DNA of 64,000 nucleotides, taken from positions 17,457 to 81,456 of IMG/VR virus record IMGVR_UViG_3300047564_002293; one strand, given 5' to 3'. The notes under the pieces were generated by a model that saw only the letters and a program-made list of their open reading frames with translations, searched no databases and was not told the DNA's origin. The position numbers and the translations under genes are program-made. This document shows positions 17,101-37,780 of the stretch, piece after piece (the first letter of the stretch is position 1; the number at the start of each line of letters is the position of its first letter). This DNA is from a virus.

Positions 17101-20100
17101 AATGGGAAAGAAGATGCAATACCATTAAATTGAGAAGATATATCTTTGATTTTTTTGAAATATTGATTATTTAATTCATTATTTTTAAATTGTATAATTC
17201 GAGCAACAATTTTTTGTGGTGGACTATCTACTCCTTCTCTATATGATGAAAGTGGTATTGGTTGACCACCAACACTTCTATACCCAAGAGGAGCTTCTGC
17301 AAATGTAATTTGTGTTCCTGAAATAGTAAATGCTTTTCCAGGTTCTTGTAAAATACCATCTAATGATAGAATTACATTATTGACATTAGAAACAGAATAT
17401 GGAGTATTTGATCCCTTTAAAGTGATTGTGAAGGTTTTGTTACCGCTTCTGTTTCCATTTGAATCAAAATAACCACTAAAATCTGGAGTTAGTTTGATAT
17501 CATAGGAAAGCATCTCTCCCGTATCAAATGTAGATGCAAATACAGATCCTCTTCCTCTAATTACATTTAAATTTGAAAGATTAAATGTACTTTGAGTTAT
17601 TACTCTATGAGTATTTTCTATGGTTACTTTATTTTTTTCAGGATCCCATAATTGAATAAAACTTACATGATCAATTTTTGGTTGTACTGGTTTTATTTTG
17701 TTTTCTACTTCAGACTCTACAGAAACTTCTCCGAATACTTTAAATCCAGCTGGGTGTATTGTTTGGGTAACTAAACTTCTCCAAACATCAATCGGCGTTT
17801 TGGATTTGATTACATAAGAATAATCTTGATAGAAATACGAATCTGCAATTCTTTGTGAATCTGAACTAATCTTTGATCTGTCAGAAGCGTAGTAACCCAA
17901 GTTATCATAATATGATTTTATGTTATCAGATAACAATCCAACAAAGGATTTTACTACATAAGCAGTTTTATTTTTAATTTTGCCAACAATGGTTAAATTT
18001 TCTTTAAATTCTCCTTCTATTTTTTCAATTCTTAGTATATTTGTATTTTCTCTCCAACCATTTTTTGTTACAAATCCCTTAGCGATTAAAACACCACTAT
18101 CGTATTGATTAATTTCTTCACCATCAATAAAGGCATTTTCTGGGAAATTATTTACCACTAAAATACGTGGGGTTGTGAATATCTTCCTTATGGTGGTATC
18201 TCTATTATAATTCTTTCCGTTTTCTATGATCGAGATGCTCTTAGGAACTCCAATAGATGCACTGGAAAAATATATCTTAACGTCAGTTTCGATAATTTTG
18301 ATATCAGGCTGGCGATTATATCCAACACCCCTATTCTTAGTTACTATACCAGATATAGATCCGTTAGAATCCTTAATTATCTCAAATTCAGCAAATTTTC
18401 CATCAGTATTCAGTAAAATTGCCTTTGGTTTTGAATAATTTTTTCCAGAACTTATAATATTAATAGAAGAAATATTTTTCGCAATACTATTCCAATTAAC
18501 AACAGCAACACATTCGTTTTCTGCTGCTGGTCTTACTCCATACACTCTAGGAATTTTTATAAATTCTTTACCTTGATTTTCTATTACAACACTATTAATT
18601 TGCCCGACAGAAGAAGCAGAATTTGTGTTATATGCGATAGTTCCCGATCCATCATATTTTGGATAGGAACTCATCTCATATACAATGCTATTGGGGGTTG
18701 TATATGTAACAATTTTCGATCCCTGTAGAGGATCTTCAATTAGTTTCAAATATGATTTATCTGAATCTATTATTCCTGCTTTGTCAAAATAGAAATAATT
18801 TACATATTTTGTACTAGTTTCTTTTGTAGTAGATAATACTCCATTATCATAATATGACCCAAATCCAAATTTAACTTTAATATTTGAACCAGGAGATCCA
18901 GGAAGAATAGTATTTCTTAAACTTTCCGTTGAAATAATATTAAAATTACCACTTGGAGAAAATTCCAAGAAACTGCCAGTCAAAGAATAATGTGATGTAT
19001 CAAATTTATAAGTGTAATATTTTTGAACATCGATAATTGGATTTCTTGACCAATTAATATTATCATACGAAAATTCAAATTTATATGCTTGATTTTCGAT
19101 ATTATCTTTTACATATACTAGTTTTTTTGGAGTACTAGAATCAAAGAAACTAATTCCTGAGTATAAGGAATTTATGGATCCTAAAACTCTATCTACACCA
19201 TAAACAACCACCAGTTCTTGAGAATTTTCATCGTAGGAAAGAACGTATCCATCTTTATCAGTATTACCAACATGAAAATCTACTGGGAGTGTATATTTTT
19301 CGTATGCACTCGAAACTAGTTCATTGTTGAAATGATTTACGACCGTCGTTTCCTTCTGCCCACGTAGTACATCTACATATAATCCATTGTTTGAAATTGC
19401 AGTTACTTTTACAATTTCTGATCCTAGTTGTAAATAATCATTATTTGAGATAGATTGAACATCATTTAGATATAATCTAGTATTTGTTGTCGAAAATCCT
19501 ACATGCGTTACTTCTAAAATCAAAAATCTCGTTGAAGTTGTAGTAACTGATCTATCCAAAGAAGAATTTTGAACGGTTAACAAATCTCCTTGTTTGTATC
19601 CTTTACCTTTAGATGTTATCGTGATTGATGTGACAACACCATTAGTAACGGAAATTGTTGCTCTAGCATTGTTAGTATTGCCTGCTTTTCCTATAACAGC
19701 ATCCGAACTATTACCAACTACTCTTCCTTCAATGTCTCTGCATTTTGTAATATCATTGAAAATTAATTCAACGTTAGTAAATGTTTGATTTCCTGATGTA
19801 GTTGATGCATAATCACCAGTTGTGACAAAATTAGAATTTGCGTATGCATAAAATCGAGTTAGTGTGGCAGTACCATTAGAAACTGCTCCAGAAGAATGTG
19901 AAGGTGGAACATTCCCAGTGATTCCAGAAGTTGTTACCTGATAAACTAAAGAATTATACGTTAAATACTCGCCAGAAGATACTGAAGTATTTGCAGTCCA
20001 TGATTTACTGGTAATATTATAACTACCATTATTTAAAACTCGTTGACTTCCTAATCCAGTATCAACAATAGTTTTTGTGTAAGATGGTGAAGATAATTTT

Positions 20101-27184: not shown

Positions 27185-27446
27185 AGAGATCTCGCAGGTT
27201 GTCTTCGAGACTTTCGGTAGACTCGATGTTGCTTCCAAAGGATGAGGAGTCTTCATAAATTACATTTCCAGTTTCATCAAAAGTTGAAATATTTACTTTG
27301 TCATCAGTGCTGTATATACCCTGATACCACTTGTCTGCTAACTCTAGCATGTGATCAGCTAACTTATCATAATCAGTGAAAGTTTGATCGTCAACCACTT
27401 CACCTTCCTTGTTAACAATTTGATAATTAATCTTCTTCTCGGTCAT
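27114..27446 (-). CDS. Acidic hypothetical protein
   Basis: 110 aa, MTEKKINYQIVNKEGEVV. ATG at 27446 chosen because GAGGA precedes it; the longer frame starts with TTG. The C-terminal third is Ser/Asp/Lys-rich and probably disordered. It overlaps the AbrB-like gene by 20 bp. No family recognised. Confidence 0.65.
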   Translation of the reverse strand: MTEKKINYQIVNKEGEVVDDQTFTDYDKLADHMLELADKWYQGIYSTDDKVNISTFDETGNVIYEDSSSFGSNIESTESLEDNLRDLYGDTRTAGKGFGDSTKESRKNSK

Positions 27447-27627
27447 TTGCAAATTCCTCGTCAACTCGTTCAACTAAAATAGTGCCATCTTTGTTCACAC
27501 TCCATTCTAGCACATCGCCCTCTTCCCATCCAACACTTTCTAATAGGTCTTCGGGGAGTGTTACGAAATACTCCTGAAAGTCATCATTGTATTCTACCGT
27601 TGTTTCGTATACTTTATGCATTATCAT
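27427..27627 (-). CDS. AbrB/MazE-like swapped-hairpin DNA-binding protein
   Basis: 66 aa. Residues about 22-54 (VTLPEDLLESVGWEEGDVLE...DGTILVERV) have the AbrB/SpoVT/MazE beta-hairpin pattern, which forms dimeric DNA-binding folds in transition regulators and antitoxins. No partner toxin is adjacent. It is a candidate phage transcription regulator, and the nearest obvious DNA-binding candidate to the GC-island promoter boxes. That link is inference only. Confidence 0.7.
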   Translation of the reverse strand: MIMHKVYETTVEYNDDFQEYFVTLPEDLLESVGWEEGDVLEWSVNKDGTILVERVDEEFANDREED

Positions 27628-28095: not shown

Positions 28096-28305
28096 TCAGG
28101 GGAGGGCAGCGAGTGCCTTCCTGATCACGGCGGACATGCCAGGGGAGATGGTGCTGCGCCCCTTGCTGCCATGCGTCGGCAGGATGATGTCAGTCTGCCA
28201 GGCGGGGTGATTCCAGATCTGATGCGATGCTGTCGTTCGCTTGAGCACGGCGCCGCTCGCTTTCAGATCTCGCTCCGCTTGCTTCCACTTGAGAGGTGAG
28301 GGCAT
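28096..28305 (-). CDS. HicA-like mRNA interferase
   Basis: 69 aa with the HicA (YcfA) fold pattern: SH at residues 27-28 (the catalytic His is in this position), PTH at 43-45 and a C-terminal IRKAL helix. HicA toxins cleave mRNA and are normally paired with HicB. No HicB-like frame is visible next to it, so it is an orphan, perhaps used against host mRNA. It is the last gene of the island, about 25 bp after the upstream stop, and probably cotranscribed. Confidence 0.8.
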   Translation of the reverse strand: MPSPLKWKQAERDLKASGAVLKRTTASHQIWNHPAWQTDIILPTHGSKGRSTISPGMSAVIRKALAALP

Positions 28306-28567: not shown

Positions 28568-28717
28568 TCAGCGCCCATCCCAGCAGGCAGTCTGCCAACC
28601 GTCCCGCTCCATACGGCGGCGGTCGAAGTCGTCAGCATCCCAGCGATCGTCGAAGTCCATGTCGAAGATCTCGCCAGGGGCATCTTGGATCTCGGTGAAG
28701 CAGGTGTCGAATTCCAT
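28568..28717 (-). CDS. Very small acidic protein
   Basis: 49 aa, MEFDTCFTEIQDAPGEIFDM, Asp-rich centre (DFDDRWDADDFDRRR). It has its own promoter unit (28742-28785) and an A/C-rich leader without Shine-Dalgarno. Mimicry of DNA by the acidic patch is possible but unproven. Confidence 0.6.
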   Translation of the reverse strand: MEFDTCFTEIQDAPGEIFDMDFDDRWDADDFDRRRMERDGWQTACWDGR

Positions 28718-28741
28718 GGTTCGTTTCGTTTGATTGATCTT

Positions 28742-28785
28742 AGTCTACAGGGTCGGGGTCAGTCCAGCGAGGCGATCTGTGCCAC
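28742..28785 (-). promoter_or_regulatory. Island promoter unit: TGTGCCAC box plus TAGACT
   Basis: TGTGCCAC (28778-28785), 30 nt, then agtcta (28742-28747; TAGACT on minus). A second half-site TGTCACA follows the first TGTGCCA by 10 nt. No TTGACA-like -35. Drives the 49-aa gene. Confidence 0.6.
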
Positions 28786-28899
28786 CTTCTCTGCTGTCAC
28801 AGCGTCAAGGGTCTGGGCAGTCTGCAGGATGGCGCCAGCGGTCTGAGAGAACATCAGCAGCAGAGCAGCAGCGAGGGCGAGGCGAAGGGTGTTTGCCAT
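28759..28899 (-). CDS. Small secreted or membrane peptide
   Basis: 46 aa from ATG 28899. Residues 1-20 form a signal peptide (LRLALAAALLLMFSQTAGA) with a plausible cleavage after AGA; the mature part is a short helix. The longer frame upstream is not used because the 53-aa gene ends at 28907, 7 bp before this ATG. It could act in the periplasm, for example in exclusion or lysis control. The next promoter box lies inside its 3' end. Confidence 0.6.
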   Translation of the reverse strand: MANTLRLALAAALLLMFSQTAGAILQTAQTLDAVTAEKVAQIASLD

Positions 28900-28906
28900 G
28901 CTAGGA

Positions 28907-29068
28907 TCAGCGATCGAACTGAGCGAGGGAGGAAGGGGCGATGTGAGAGGGAGAACCACAGGAGCGGTAGAAGTCTACCATACGCTCTGCCTCTGCCAGG
29001 GTGGGGAACCACTGCGACCGCCACTCACAGGCATTGTAGGGGGTCTGGTAGCGAACTTCGATTCTCAT
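28907..29068 (-). CDS. Small hypothetical protein
   Basis: 53 aa, MRIEVRYQTPYNACEWRSQW, ending PSSLAQFDR. Preceded by promoter unit 29095-29138 and leader CAACCAAACGAGACGACC. The PTLAEAERMVDFYRS helix resembles those of small phage proteins that handle short queries such as DUF-type adaptors, but no family is recognised. Confidence 0.65.
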   Translation of the reverse strand: MRIEVRYQTPYNACEWRSQWFPTLAEAERMVDFYRSCGSPSHIAPSSLAQFDR

Positions 29069-29094
29069 GGTCGTCTCGTTTGGTTGACTCTGTT

Positions 29095-29138
29095 AGTCTA
29101 GAGGATGATCAGTTGCACCAGGCGGCGAGGTGTGCCAG
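29095..29138 (-). promoter_or_regulatory. Island promoter unit: TGTGCCAG box plus TAGACT
   Basis: TGTGCCAG (29131-29138, one mismatch), 30 nt, agtcta (29095-29100). No -35 match. The box overlaps the C-terminal codons of the upstream 64-aa gene. Confidence 0.55.
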
Positions 29139-29303
29139 TTCGCCTGCCGTCTCCTGCAGGTTGGATTCGGTCAGACCAGCGAGGCAGGATTCGAGATCAT
29201 CGGGGTCGATGGCGTCGATGTCCCCATTGATCTCCCATGCCTGTGCCTCAGCGAGGGCGAGGCAGCGATCACGAAGCGAGAGGGTGAAGGTCTTTTCTTT
29301 CAT
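29109..29303 (-). CDS. Acidic helical hypothetical protein
   Basis: 64 aa, MKEKTFTLSLRDRCLALAEAQ; acidic middle (DIDAIDPDDLESCLAGL). TAGACT lies only 6 nt before the ATG, and the upstream box is degenerate, so expression probably comes from the promoter at 29583. No family recognised. Confidence 0.6.
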   Translation of the reverse strand: MKEKTFTLSLRDRCLALAEAQAWEINGDIDAIDPDDLESCLAGLTESNLQETAGELAHLAAWCN

Positions 29304-29312
29304 GCTGTTAGT

Positions 29313-29555
29313 CTAGATGGAGATGGTCTCGTGACGCTGCAGCAGGGTGCGGTTTGCCCACTGTCCCAGCGAGGTGCCAGGCATCATCAGGCGCAGCATG
29401 TCACGGCGGCGGCAGTCGTGACCGCTGACGCTGCCAGAGTGCCATTGCACGATGGCGCGACGGGTCAGGGGCGACAGGATCACACGCTCACAGGCGCTGC
29501 TAGGGCGTTGCACGTTGATGAACACAGGCAGGTGATCGATGGCGAAGTTCAGCAT
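29313..29555 (-). CDS. Basic hypothetical protein
   Basis: 80 aa, Arg/His-rich (DCRRRDMLRLMMPG). Its own promoter unit and an AACCAAACAACCCAACCC leader precede the ATG at 29555. No family recognised. Confidence 0.6.
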   Translation of the reverse strand: MLNFAIDHLPVFINVQRPSSACERVILSPLTRRAIVQWHSGSVSGHDCRRRDMLRLMMPGTSLGQWANRTLLQRHETISI

Positions 29556-29582
29556 GGGTTGGGTTGTTTGGTTGACTCTGTT

Positions 29583-29626
29583 AGTCTAGAGGGTCGGCGG
29601 TCGATGCTGGGGGCAGCGTGTGCCAC
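29583..29626 (-). promoter_or_regulatory. Island promoter unit: TGTGCCAC box plus TAGACT
   Basis: TGTGCCAC (29619-29626), 30 nt, agtcta (29583-29588). The second half-site is weak (TGTCCTA at 10-nt spacing). No -35 match. Confidence 0.6.
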
Positions 29627-29639
29627 CCCCTCAGGTGTC

Positions 29640-30068
29640 CTAATAGTCGCTGAACACAGCAACCTGACGATACTTCACTTCACAGCAGGTGAAATCGTAA
29701 CGCAGGGAGGAATCGTAGGTTGCCTGCCAATCTACAACCAAAGCACAGGGAACATCGTGCAGATCGCTATAGTATTCTTCAGCGAAGTCTGCCTCAGATT
29801 CATACCAACCACGGAAGCGATCATCACATCCTTCGATGTCAGAAACGCAACCCATTTCACCAATCAAAGCATCAACGGCATCATATCCGATCGCTTCACC
29901 ACAGCGGCAATACTCTTCATAATAGGAGACAAAATCGTTCTCATTGTAGGTGTCGATGAACTCCAGCATATCATCCAGAGCATAGTTCTCATCGATCAAT
30001 TCATCGATCTTCTCAACAGCAGCAGCGGAGAGAACTTCTTTGTAGTTTGCAGTCAAGGTGATGCTCAT
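29640..30068 (-). CDS. ArdA-like antirestriction protein
   Basis: 142 aa and very acidic. The middle (LEFIDTYNENDFVSYYEEY) and C-terminal pattern (F-G-Y-S..DFAEEY...VDWQATYDSSLRYDF) match ArdA-family proteins, DNA mimics that block type I restriction enzymes by occupying the DNA groove. Expressed from a near-consensus promoter, as expected for an early anti-defence gene. Base composition is less GC-rich than its neighbours. No ArdA-specific catalytic residues exist to check, so the family call rests on pattern. Confidence 0.7.
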   Translation of the reverse strand: MSITLTANYKEVLSAAAVEKIDELIDENYALDDMLEFIDTYNENDFVSYYEEYCRCGEAIGYDAVDALIGEMGCVSDIEGCDDRFRGWYESEADFAEEYYSDLHDVPCALVVDWQATYDSSLRYDFTCCEVKYRQVAVFSDY

Positions 30069-30092
30069 GTCGTTTGTTTGGTTGACTCTGTT

Positions 30093-30135
30093 AGTATGGC
30101 AGGGATTGGGGAGGAAGTCAAGAGGTCTGTGCCAC
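30093..30135 (-). promoter_or_regulatory. Strong island promoter before the ArdA-like gene
   Basis: TTGACT-17-CATACT on minus (30121-30116 and 30098-30093) plus TGTGCCAC at 30128-30135, 29 nt from the -10, with half-site TGTCACA 10 nt further. Both a -35 and the box are present. Confidence 0.75.
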
Positions 30136-30146
30136 TTGTTGGATTG

Positions 30147-30314
30147 TCACATCCCGTTCAGGAAGTCTGCCATCGCCTCCTGATACTCATCATAGGTTTT
30201 GAAGCGGTCAGCGAAGCGAGCGGGCACCTTGCCATCGAACTTAGCAGGGGCGGGCAGGTCGCGCCCCTTGGCGAGGATCTGCTGTTCATAGACGTTGGGG
30301 TTGAAGCGGGTCAT
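30147..30314 (-). CDS. Small hypothetical protein
   Basis: 55 aa, MTRFNPNVYEQQILAKGRDL, with Pro/Ala linker and helical C-terminus (YDEYQEAMADFLNGM). Leader AAACAAACGAGACCGA, no Shine-Dalgarno. No family recognised. Confidence 0.65.
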   Translation of the reverse strand: MTRFNPNVYEQQILAKGRDLPAPAKFDGKVPARFADRFKTYDEYQEAMADFLNGM

Positions 30315-30340
30315 TCGGTCTCGTTTGTTTGGTATGCTTT

Positions 30341-30383
30341 AGTCTACAGGGTCAGGCGGGGGATCTGGTCCCCCTTGTGCCAC
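30341..30383 (-). promoter_or_regulatory. Island promoter unit: TGTGCCAC box plus TAGACT
   Basis: TGTGCCAC (30376-30383), 29 nt, agtcta (30341-30346). Between them lies a GGGGGA/TCCCCC hairpin-prone stretch. No -35 match. Confidence 0.6.
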
Positions 30384-30395
30384 CTTGCCAACTGG

Positions 30396-30629
30396 TCAGG
30401 GCAGCACCGCCAGACGCTCAGCGAGTCGCGCCTTCGCTTGAATCTCCTCAAGCGAGGGGATCTGTTCAATCCAACGCATCTCACACTTAGAGTAATCGTA
30501 TCCCTGAACTTCCAATTCTTTCATGTATGCCACAGCGGCGGAGTGATAATCGAACAGACGCAGGGAAGAGAAGTCTTCACCTTCATAATCCCATCCGCCG
30601 ATGACAGCGTAGGCGCGAGGCGTTTCCAT
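30396..30629 (-). CDS. Hypothetical protein, conserved phage-type
   Basis: 77 aa from ATG 30629, chosen because GGAGAT precedes it. Begins METPRAYAVIGGWDYEGEDF and has LRLFDYHSAAVAYMKELE. The pattern resembles small query-type proteins common in phages, but no function is known. It has the only clear Shine-Dalgarno in the island. Confidence 0.75.
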   Translation of the reverse strand: METPRAYAVIGGWDYEGEDFSSLRLFDYHSAAVAYMKELEVQGYDYSKCEMRWIEQIPSLEEIQAKARLAERLAVLP

Positions 30630-30657
30630 TTGATCTCCGTTTCGTTTGGTATGCTTT

Positions 30658-30701
30658 AGTATTGCACCGATCGGGGGGCATCGCAAGGGGGTCTGTGCCA
30701 C
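30658..30701 (-). promoter_or_regulatory. Island promoter with -35 and TGTGCCAC box
   Basis: TTGCGA-17-AATACT on minus (30686-30681 and 30663-30658) plus TGTGCCAC at 30694-30701, 30 nt from the -10. Upstream, 30702-30802 is a GC-rich spacer with repeated CCCCCTAG; no gene seen there. Confidence 0.7.
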
Positions 30702-30802
30702 CTGTGCTAGTGTCCACTGCCCCCTAGACAGACGCCCCCTAGGCGACTAACCTAGAGGGCGGGAGGGGAGGGAAGGGGGCAGCGAAGCGGCCGCCCAGTT
30801 TG

Positions 30803-30979
30803 TTATACTTCCAGTAGTTCAGGATAGTATTGCTGAACCTCTTCATTCAGTTCTTCATCGTTATACTTATCGTATCCCTCCATGAGATAATCGTAGCAGA
30901 GACACATCATAGTTTTGAGATCCATGTCATCCAACATTTGCTGGACAAGTTGATCCTGAAGTTCTTTGCGATCCATCAT
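30803..30979 (-). CDS. Small acidic helical protein
   Basis: 58 aa from the first of two in-frame ATGs. MMDRKELQDQLVQQMLDDMD then LMEGYDKYNDEELNEEVQQ. The ATG overlaps the TGA of the upstream membrane peptide (ATGA), implying translational coupling. No family recognised. Confidence 0.65.
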   Translation of the reverse strand: MMDRKELQDQLVQQMLDDMDLKTMMCLCYDYLMEGYDKYNDEELNEEVQQYYPELLEV

Positions 30980-31101
30980 TTGTTCAGGGGAGAATTGTAG
31001 AAAGATTTGAACACCGAAATCACAATGATAGCGGTGGAGATGACACCAACGAACCCGAGGTAAGTTACAGCGTCACCAGTGAAATTGTAAGATTCAGGCA
31101 T
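30976..31101 (-). CDS. Single-span membrane peptide
   Basis: 41 aa with one predicted helix (YLGFVGVISTAIIVISVF). First gene of the unit at 31122, coupled to the 58-aa gene. Could be a superinfection-exclusion or membrane-adaptor peptide. Confidence 0.65.
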   Translation of the reverse strand: MPESYNFTGDAVTYLGFVGVISTAIIVISVFKSFYNSPLNK

Positions 31102-31121
31102 CGGATTTGTTTGACTCTGTT

Positions 31122-31180
31122 AGTATTGCATCAAATGTGGGCAGATGGTGATACCCTGTGCCACTTGTTGAACTGGCACA
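31122..31180 (-). promoter_or_regulatory. Island promoter with perfect palindromic operator
   Basis: agtatt (31122-31127; AATACT on minus), 29 nt, TGTGCCAC (31157-31164), and the mirror half-site TGGCACA at 31174-31180. The two halves lie in a 10-bp perfect stem (31154-31163 with 31174-31183). No -35 match. Confidence 0.65.
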
Positions 31181-31199
31181 GGGTCACTTGACAATGATA

Positions 31200-31337
31200 T
31201 CAGAACTCGATAGTCTCAAGGGTAGGAGAATTCTGATACTCATCTGCCGAATCTTCGGTCAGAGTATCAAGAACTGCCATCAGTTCGTTACCATCAGCGG
31301 CACGATTGAGCAGGGAAAGCATTACTTCTTTGGTCAT
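31200..31337 (-). CDS. Small acidic protein
   Basis: 45 aa, MTKEVMLSLLNRAADGNELM, helical with an acidic second half. ATG 31337. It lies 43 bp after the upstream 42-aa gene; probably same transcript. No family recognised. Confidence 0.6.
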   Translation of the reverse strand: MTKEVMLSLLNRAADGNELMAVLDTLTEDSADEYQNSPTLETIEF

Positions 31338-32032: not shown

Positions 32033-32087
32033 CCCCCCTAACCATCACCTTTGCTTATGGGTTCGATCAGGGGGGCTTATCGTTGAG

Positions 32088-32151
32088 TTTTCCACAGGGT
32101 TGTGGAAAACTATTGAAAGTTTTCCACAGGTTTTAGTATATCTGTGGAAAA
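32088..32151. promoter_or_regulatory. Cluster of four DnaA-type boxes
   Basis: Exact TTTTCCACA at 32088-32096 and 32120-32128, and its complement at 32101-32109 and 32143-32151. Two facing pairs. TTTTCCACA is the DnaA-box form I recall reported for Synechococcus elongatus; the E. coli form is TTATCCACA. Lies in a 180-bp non-coding stretch. Confidence 0.75.
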
Positions 32152-32159
32152 CTATTTAC

Positions 32160-36100: not shown

Positions 36101-36301
36101 GCGTCCCTTTGATTTGCTTTTCTTATGGGTCGCTGGGGTGGTCGATTTGGATTGCTTTTCTTTTGTGATTTTTTGCTGTTTTCTAATGTACTCTACTGCC
36201 TTGTCAGCGGTCGCAACATCTGCAATCTGCTGCCCATTGTAAAGTATAACGTATCTAGTGCCATGCCACGGCACTGCTGCATATCCATCTTTAGTAATCA
36301 T
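36083..36301 (-). CDS. Small basic-tailed protein
   Basis: 72 aa. Folded N-terminal half (YAAVPWHGTRYVILYNGQQI) and a Lys-rich tail (THKKSKSKGR). Starts in an ATGA overlap with the dam stop, so it is cotranscribed with it. Possible DNA-binding accessory. Confidence 0.65.
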   Translation of the reverse strand: MITKDGYAAVPWHGTRYVILYNGQQIADVATADKAVEYIRKQQKITKEKQSKSTTPATHKKSKSKGRLTLDP

Positions 36302-37203
36302 CGCTTAACAATTAAAATTTCATGTGATTCTTTTGCTACATCCTGTGCTGGTGTTAGAATGCCACGATCCATTTTATTCTTACCAATTCTCTTCTCTCCT
36401 AGAGCATATGAGTAATGCCACTCTGGATAGTACAATTCAAAGTCTTTGTAATACTCTCGAATCGTTTCGCAGTTATTGTAAGATAGAATGAATGTACCTT
36501 TGTGATTGTGCAACAGATCACGCAGCTTTTCGTGATCAAATCCAGTGTGATGTACGTCGATGTTGCAGTTAGGATACATGCCTTTCAGCATTTTATTGTC
36601 GCTGTCCTTCTCTAGGTAGTAGGGCGGGTCCAGGTAAATGAAATCACGAGAAAATTCAGGAATGACATCCACGAAGTTACCTTGTGCCACTGATAATAGT
36701 GGATTGCGATAACTACGAATGTTGTCTACCATTTTATGCCACTTCTTCTCGTCCTGATAGATCTTACTGATCCATCCCAAATACATTGGACCATAGGACA
36801 AATTATGATTGAAATAGTAGTATGCTGCAGCAGTCACTGCTGACAACTGAATTGGATCACGCTTATAATAGTCTGTGCGCCAATCCTTGAGCAACTCCTG
36901 TGTATTCTCCCACTGAATCAAAATCTCTTTGATCTCAGCATACCTTTCCTTGGTAGGAGTCAGTGTCATCATCTCATCTGCTAATTCTTGTGGAGAATTC
37001 AGTAGTACATTCCAGAAGTTGACTAGAACATCGAAAATATCGAATCCCAGAACGGGCACACCATACTCTGATGCCCAACGCGACTCAAGACTGCCACCAC
37101 CAACAAATGGTGAAATAATACGCTCAGGTTTGGTCTCGATGTAACCCGTAATGATATTATACGCTTTAGATTTACCACCAGCGTAGCGAATAGGTGTCTT
37201 CAT
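36298..37203 (-). CDS. dam: DNA adenine methylase (Dam, D12 class)
   Basis: 301 aa from ATG 37203. Motif X RYAGGKSK (residues 6-13), SAM-binding PFVGGGS (32-38), and catalytic motif IV DPPYY (192-196). Transfers methyl from SAM to N6 of adenine, probably in GATC. It would protect phage DNA from host restriction or mark it against its own nuclease. The gene follows the GIY-YIG-like gene by 4 bp, an operon. Longer upstream frame ignored because it overlaps that gene. Confidence 0.92.
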   Translation of the reverse strand: MKTPIRYAGGKSKAYNIITGYIETKPERIISPFVGGGSLESRWASEYGVPVLGFDIFDVLVNFWNVLLNSPQELADEMMTLTPTKERYAEIKEILIQWENTQELLKDWRTDYYKRDPIQLSAVTAAAYYYFNHNLSYGPMYLGWISKIYQDEKKWHKMVDNIRSYRNPLLSVAQGNFVDVIPEFSRDFIYLDPPYYLEKDSDNKMLKGMYPNCNIDVHHTGFDHEKLRDLLHNHKGTFILSYNNCETIREYYKDFELYYPEWHYSYALGEKRIGKNKMDRGILTPAQDVAKESHEILIVKR

Positions 37204-37207
37204 AGAT

Positions 37208-37780
37208 TCAACTGCTCTTAGATGTACGATCAATCTTGTATTGACCAAATGCTTCGTGAATGTTGCTGGGAAGCGAAACGCCAGTCTCCTGATAGTTCCA
37301 CTTGGGATAGCAATCTTCAATGATATTATACTGCGAAAGGCAATTTTCTTCAATACCCTTTGCGCTCACAGGAACAACCACTTGATTAGACTTGAACAAC
37401 CCAGGCACCTCAACTACAATGGGTTCCATGTAAATCATATACACTTCGACTTTATTACCTTTGTCGAGTTCTTCACGCATGAACCAGTTAATAGCAAATC
37501 GATTGATACCAGGGTCATCTTGACCAGCATTCAAATAAAAATTCATGCAACCTTGAATGCCACTCTTAGTGGAAGACTGACCAATTTTATATATCTCCTC
37601 GTTGACACACAGAATATACACCAGCGAAACGTGTTTTGTCTTCAGTTTCTTGGGGAAATTACTATCGTAATTCAGTGTCAGTTTAGTTTTGTGAAATACA
37701 TGTTTAGGACCAGAATAAATTTCGGTTCCGTGTACAATTTCTCCTACTCGAATTGCAGTGGGAACATCAATAATTTTCAT
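37208..37780 (-). CDS. GIY-YIG-like nuclease
   Basis: 190 aa. VYIL (54-57) and YKIG (64-67) fit the GIY...YIG pair; a Glu (E144/E145) and N162 (YPKWN) fit the metal-binding Glu and the C-terminal Asn. The usual Arg after YIG is not obvious. Such enzymes include restriction enzymes (Eco29kI type) and homing nucleases. Next to Dam, a restriction partner is an attractive reading, but a host-genome nuclease is possible. Perfect consensus promoter upstream. Confidence 0.6.
   Translation of the reverse strand: MKIIDVPTAIRVGEIVHGTEIYSGPKHVFHKTKLTLNYDSNFPKKLKTKHVSLVYILCVNEEIYKIGQSSTKSGIQGCMNFYLNAGQDDPGINRFAINWFMREELDKGNKVEVYMIYMEPIVVEVPGLFKSNQVVVPVSAKGIEENCLSQYNIIEDCYPKWNYQETGVSLPSNIHEAFGQYKIDRTSKSS

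Follow-up and report, generated by a model that had tools for sequence, protein, structure and literature searches.

What reads a box that recurs seven times in one small gene island of a virus, each time at nearly the same distance from a -10 hexamer? The boxes lie between positions 28,742 and 31,180 of a 64,000-nt stretch of DNA (the window; positions 17,457 to 81,456 of IMG/VR record IMGVR_UViG_3300047564_002293), where an initial annotation had seen a new-looking promoter family that would fit a regulon of the island. We found that each box is one half, the one nearer the promoter, of a 24-bp dyad (ideal form TGTGNCANTT-N4-AANTGNCACA) at fixed spacing from the -10, that this dyad occurs in two unrelated phage groups and coincides with the early gene block of the Microcystis siphophage Mic1, that its geometry matches that of an element upstream of the host RNA Yfr2, and that the GntR domain is present in the hosts tested and was not found in the phages tested. 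The best reading, and in our judgement a probable one, is that the phages have captured GntR operators of their hosts, which serve to activate early promoters. The match between the seven switches and an element that lies ahead of a small RNA in some cyanobacteria suggests the use of a borrowed control protein of the host, by several kinds of cyanobacterial virus, to switch on their first genes.

The promoter unit and its geometry

All seven annotated boxes are present, six as an exact TGTGCCAC and the one at 29131 with one mismatch. On the minus strand, which is the direction of the genes, they read GTGGCACA, or CTGGCACA at 29131, the general form being [C/G]TGGCACA in all seven units, with TGGCACA intact in every one. 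The gap between box and -10, given as 29-30 nt, is indeed 30, 30, 30, 29, 29, 30 and 29 nt in units 1 to 7; the annotated hexamer TATACT, on the other hand, occurs in no unit, the actual hexamers being TAGACT (4), AATACT (2) and CATACT (1). A brief leader and then an ATG follow each -10. The box makes up only half of the whole: the left halves start 17 nt upstream of TGGCACA (TGTGACA twice, TAGGACA, GTGGACA and TGTGCCA, weaker in units 2 and 5). The units are listed below with scores from a matrix built from 324 IMG/VR units, the window excluded, which at a threshold of 16 recovers precisely these seven sites in the window.

28778..28801, minus strand: dyad 1, TGTGACAGCAGAGAAGGTGGCACA; score 27.7; its right half is the earlier box; overlaps the 3' end of the upstream open reading frame (ORF) 28759-28959
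28742..28747, minus strand: unit 1 -10 TAGACT, spacing 30; precedes an ATG at about 28717 (small ORF seen by eye, below the 50-aa listing limit)
29131..29154, minus strand: dyad 2, GGAGACGGCAGGCGAACTGGCACA; score 19.9; left half weak; within the 3' end of ORF 29109-29303
29095..29100, minus strand: unit 2 -10 TAGACT, spacing 30; precedes ORF 28907-29068
29619..29642, minus strand: dyad 3, TAGGACACCTGAGGGGGTGGCACA; score 21.0; left half TAGGACA, seen in 7 of 359 units
29583..29588, minus strand: unit 3 -10 TAGACT, spacing 30; precedes ORF 29313-29555
30128..30151, minus strand: dyad 4, TGTGACAATCCAACAAGTGGCACA; score 30.4; one mismatch to TGTGCCA-N10-TGGCACA
30093..30098, minus strand: unit 4 -10 CATACT, spacing 29; precedes the anti-restriction-like ORF 29640-30068
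30376..30399, minus strand: dyad 5, CTGACCAGTTGGCAAGGTGGCACA; score 20.5; left half weak
30341..30346, minus strand: unit 5 -10 TAGACT, spacing 29; spacer with the inverted repeat GGGGG-accagat-CCCCC; precedes ORF 30147-30314
30694..30717, minus strand: dyad 6, GTGGACACTAGCACAGGTGGCACA; score 18.7
30658..30663, minus strand: unit 6 -10 AATACT, spacing 30; precedes an ATG at about 30629 within ORF 30396-30701
31157..31180, minus strand: dyad 7, TGTGCCAGTTCAACAAGTGGCACA; score 36.5; perfect TGTGCCA-N10-TGGCACA
31122..31127, minus strand: unit 7 -10 AATACT, spacing 29; precedes an ATG at about 31101 (by eye)

The regularity had been judged too great for chance, and the counts bear this out. The pattern [CG]TGGCACA-N29/30-[TAC]A[TG]ACT, composed after the units had been seen, has 7 matches in 28700-31200 and again 7 when the whole window is counted. 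When the region was shuffled 2000 times (first-order Markov), 1997 shuffles had no match and three had a single one; 200 shuffles of the window had none. The box alone is not enriched (69 in the window with one mismatch allowed, 63.8 expected), so the information sits in the box and its spacing together. The one further exact TGTGCCAC of the window, at 36683, lies inside ORF 36298-37353 and is missed by the matrix.

The same geometry emerged from a scan of IMG/VR with a pattern taken from the perfect dyad at 31157-31180, which reached at least 120 loci; the counts that follow are among the matches listed. A TATAAT-like hexamer (one mismatch at most) lies 28-31 nt from at least one edge in 152 of the 226 distinct dyads; it stands on both sides in 15 and on neither in 74. 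The distance peaks sharply, being exactly 29 nt in 100 of 167 units, and in the first 80 loci a hexamer stands at 27-32 nt in 108 of 156 dyads, as against 14 at 10-15 nt and 18 at 40-45 nt. In 359 units with TGGCACA and a -10 (these loci plus five phages) TGTGCCA serves as the distal half 171 times and TGTGACA 33 times, counts biased toward TGTGCCA, as the IMG/VR loci were selected for perfect dyads. At the inner positions the dyads show TT-N4-AA. Some units (in L004, G001 and similar loci) carry in the -35 region, 6 nt past the dyad, an extra GAGCACA or GGGCACA that resembles a third half-site.

A promoter family with a regulator box adjoining the -35 region, at constant distance from the -10, had been correctly proposed. 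The -35 itself agrees with TTGACA at no more than three of six positions in 227 of 313 units, which is not the canonical sigma-70 arrangement with a 16-18 nt spacer, and among the seven window units a -35-like TTGACT with a 17-nt spacer is found in unit 4 only. The unit may be pictured as a 24-bp dyad operator at about -65 to -42, a spacer of 28-31 nt mostly without a good -35, and a -10 of sigma-70 type. It would be an activator-assisted promoter in which, in some units, the terminator of the upstream gene is nested in the -35 space.

An RNA explanation was also considered, in which the dyad is itself a stem-loop ending the upstream transcript, or part of a terminator-promoter cassette. The dyad can be folded as a hairpin, the S-CRM01 record annotates two sites as rho-independent terminators, and of 313 units, 61 have a spacer hairpin whose stem is 6 or longer (4.6 expected) and 15 have a hairpin (stem of 5 or more) ahead of a T-run (0.4 expected). 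If a stem were under selection its columns should pair, whereas columns 7 and 16 pair in 62 of the 226 dyads against 93.7 expected under independence. The distal half is variable (the search held the proximal one constant), and TGTGACA places an A opposite a G; the spacing to the downstream -10 is constant, and window dyads 1 and 2 overlap the upstream ORFs. As the inner positions do not pair like an RNA stem, a DNA operator is the better reading, and the stem-loop explanation is very improbable. The promoter/stem-loop (PeSL) cassettes of T4-type phages, reportedly described by Arbiol in 2010 and Comeau in 2014, are likewise small intergenic cassettes of plastic regions, and the hairpins within the spacers recall them; the dyad units differ in being defined by a DNA dyad at constant distance, in having no site in T4 and in not keeping the stem pairing. 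PeSL work is cited in the accessible part of PMC4503421.

Distribution among cyanophages and in Mic1

The closest relatives of the window DNA are Synechococcus T4-like phages, S-PM2 first, and the dyad and its spacing recur in such relatives, the absence of which had been named, together with that of transcription starts downstream of the boxes, as grounds for giving up the promoter family. All 14 T4-like cyanophage or IMG/VR records scored besides the window have matrix sites (1-23 each, weak in some), as does S-TIM5: S-CRM01 23, G002 20, P-SSM2 18, S-PM2 18, G001 17, S-RIM44 10, P-HM1 8, Syn9 7, S-SZBM1 6, S-RSM4 4, S-RIM8 4, S-TIM5 4, DSL-LC02 3, SynMITS9220M01 3 and S-CREM1 1. The counts of G001 and G002, IMG/VR records that supplied training loci, are not independent. 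T4, Ma-LMM01 and Syn5 have 0 matrix sites. Each record was also shuffled twice, which yielded no site for most, 1 for P-HM1 and S-SZBM1, and 3 for S-RSM4. In S-TIM5 (L298-L306) three of the four sites carry the variant half-site TGGCCCA at unchanged spacing, and in S-CRM01 (L345) several units stand ahead of annotated tRNA genes.

Four of the seven sites of Syn9 lie at 48-53 kb, upstream of gp25; TGGCACA alone, with 100 copies in Syn9 and no peak at 29 nt, is uninformative, most copies appearing to be coding by position and strand. Doron and colleagues reportedly described, in the ISME Journal in 2016, a novel regulatory element of the Syn9 early genes that is conserved among T4-like cyanophages. 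The phage dyad is probably this element: the phage type agrees with the description, as would the predicted early class of the genes, and Syn9 has its matrix sites. This makes the novelty first claimed for the family doubtful. Mic1 and the link to Yfr2 would be additions unless already published.

The second phage group is that of Mic1. An IMG/VR locus with seven perfect dyads (L069) is close to this siphophage, and by eye another (L063) has the same copies. In Mic1 itself (MN013189) 42 dyads were counted when up to two mismatches were allowed (0 in the reversed control), every one of them at 57.3-72.1 kb. The part of PMC11237433 available to us gives the early genes (0.5-2 h) by RNA-seq as gp49-gp73 without gp61 and gp67; 38 dyads fall within the gp49-gp73 span and the other four at most 224 bp past gp73. 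This published timing concerns Mic1; the genes of the window are predicted to be early. Upstream of the Mic1 early genes (L346) many dyads are 57-58 nt apart, about 5.5 helical turns.

The promoter family thus stands, and its restriction to the island or to this phage does not, the dyad being found in T4-like cyanophages, in Mic1 and in some host chromosomes.

Host Yfr2 loci and the candidate regulator

Among 292 cyanobacterial genomes, 10 contain the relaxed dyad TGTGNCANTTNNNNAANTGNCACA, at 11 sites in total (control, 0). Nine of these 11 exact sites were read by Rfam, and in eight of them the RNA family Cyano-1 (RF01701) starts 39-41 nt after the dyad; the search found no Cyano-1 in the ninth (L349). 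Cyano-1 is the Yfr2 family (PMC8400943, in the text available). Approached from the RNA side, the pattern TGNCACA-N35-47-GTGTGAGGAG, which fixes the right half and leaves the left half as the test, was found at 20 places in 18 genomes (control, 1). The left half is present at 18 of the 20 (dyad score at least 15 in 13, 9.6-14.8 in 5) and absent at two; at the 18 the dyad ends 42-45 nt before GTGTGAGGAG, and 7/18 were already among the relaxed-dyad loci. Cyano-1 was found in 137 of the 292 genomes. Of 30 Yfr2 loci taken by score, one has a full dyad and ten, all very similar to one another, carry TGTGACAGTT in the corresponding place. Five others (L368, L369, L373, L374, L376) show everted half-sites, AACTGNCACA-(N0-2)-TGNCAGTT. 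Given this mixed picture, the dyad belongs to some Yfr2 promoters and not to all. The RNA was not found alongside the phage dyads: searches of the window and of single stretches of Mic1 (L346), P-SSM2 (L344) and S-CRM01 (L345) gave no Cyano-1, and only tRNAs at the gathering score.

The yfr2 promoters carry a motif called CGRE1, whose primary paper is said to be Lambrecht 2018. According to the consulted part of PMC6778093, the GntR-family protein PMM1637 of Prochlorococcus MED4 is shared by all cyanobacteria, binds to those yfr2 promoters that contain CGRE1 and brings about the induction of Yfr2; there, phages are mentioned in the reference list only. The dyad has in common with CGRE1 a constant distance upstream of Yfr2/Cyano-1, where present, and would have this widely held regulator in common with it; it differs in preceding many small protein genes and in often being the fuller dyad. 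A GntR domain (PF00392) was found in all 15 host genomes examined, one each in the eight smallest (the host of Mic1 itself lies outside the set), and in none of 17 phage records tested. Of the 15 proteins aligned, 11 have a nearly identical winged-helix region, among them the proteins from the eight smallest genomes; a single conserved protein would account for a single operator in different hosts. The phage operator is the element found equally far upstream of some Yfr2 copies; a host regulator of the PMM1637 type may bind it and recruit host RNA polymerase as phage DNA enters, ahead of any phage protein.

Might the phages instead bring their own reader, which would coordinate a delayed gene class? 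A candidate lies at 27427-27627 (minus strand), a small AbrB/MazE-like protein (phrog_661) whose gene lies next to the island and whose family occurs in 14 of 23 tested records; other small proteins could be considered. The dyads are much denser in phages than in bacterial genomes, and the TGGCCCA variant of S-TIM5 looks as if it coevolved with a protein of its own. As a universal regulator the AbrB/MazE-like protein was nevertheless rejected, phrog_661 not being found in S-CRM01 or P-HM1 despite their 23 and 8 sites, and an ORF comparison across cyanophages (64 core families) gave no single shared candidate. Moreover the element covers both T4-like phages and a siphophage and stands equally far from a host RNA, and its Mic1 copies cover a block called early. 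A phage-encoded regulator is, in our view, quite unlikely.

The same host protein at the same operator might also act in the opposite sense, as an off-switch of early genes. Early transcripts of Mic1 fall after the early phase (PMC11237433, in the part available), its operators form arrays, and good -35 sequences exceed chance. The site nevertheless has its edge at about -42, upstream of the -35 and at constant distance, which suits an activator, as do the poor -35 of most units and the induction of Yfr2 through PMM1637. Repression is thus unlikely, and we favour activation by the host GntR protein.

Several observations weigh against host GntR operators as activating elements. A -35 matching at 5-6 of 6 positions, which an activator would not need, is found in 37 of 313 units (3.2 expected), and exact-TATAAT units, present in 13 of 23 tested records, are absent from the record of this phage, whose -10s differ. 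Sites are few, and the signal weak, in several cyanophages (S-CREM1 1, SynMITS9220M01 3, S-RSM4 4, with 3 in one shuffle). In Mic1 a proper unit (dyad with at most three mismatches and a well-spaced -10 of at least 4/6) stands within 220 nt of only 12 of 23 block genes (gp50-gp73 without gp61, with gp67 counted and gp49 not). On the host side, 12 of the 30 Yfr2 loci lack the element, five have the everted half-sites and in two a half-site is displaced by a few nt; the aligned GntR copy (one per genome) is of another subtype in four host genomes. The dyad would be equated with CGRE1 by its location, and both the binding and the start sites at phage dyads are predicted from sequence. Bacteria seldom carry strict dyads (the whole genome collection gave 27 scattered stretches, and 151 Cyanobiaceae genomes, with at most two mismatches, 14 places against 2 control places), and the ORFs of eight Cyanobiaceae strict-dyad loci showed by eye no shared neighbour gene. 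This scarcity counted as an argument against a host factor until the relaxed half-site search reached the Yfr2 loci.

One might speculate further that T4-like myoviruses and a Microcystis siphovirus have, independently or by exchange, put much of their early programme under the conserved GntR regulator of Yfr2, tying the first minutes of infection to the nitrogen and light state of the host and allowing early transcription without Alt, ModA, MotA and AsiA. We hold this wider scenario tentatively, a little short of even belief.

Related systems and the genes of the island

In a 2010 review (PMC2984593, partial text), early and middle control in T4-like cyanophages, which lack the polymerase-redirecting proteins of T4, was called unclear. 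An operator read by the host and common to two phage groups and Yfr2 would make both a named protein and a 24-bp site available for testing, would allow early genes of uncultured cyanophages to be recognised from DNA alone, and would connect infection to a host regulator linked with nitrogen and high-light responses. Phage expression under a host transcription factor has a parallel in cyanophage S-PM2d, which carries PhoB boxes (PMC10976474, from the portion available); there the regulator and the genes are others, and the tie is to phosphate. The present analysis contributes the Mic1 case, the nested hairpins and the quantified geometry.

The island itself (28-31 kb) carries small minus-strand ORFs and is rich in GC, which reaches 57% in 28-30 kb. 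The S-PM2 stretch beside gp25 is equally GC-rich and has similar boxes at similar spacing. The gene of unit 4 (29640-30068, minus strand) matches an anti-restriction PHROG (phrog_36653, E-value 9.6e-37), with a weak Pfam match to ArdA (E-value 0.012, below the cut-off), and is possibly a counter-defence gene under the operator. A small HicA-toxin-like protein is coded at 28096-28305 (minus strand; PF07927, E-value 9.7e-6, 26 bits against a cut-off of 27; phrog_353). Beyond the island, at 32085-32155, about four copies of TTTTCCACA / TGTGGAAAA were seen by eye within about 70 bp, just downstream of a -10-like and small-ORF sequence; we take them to resemble DnaA boxes.

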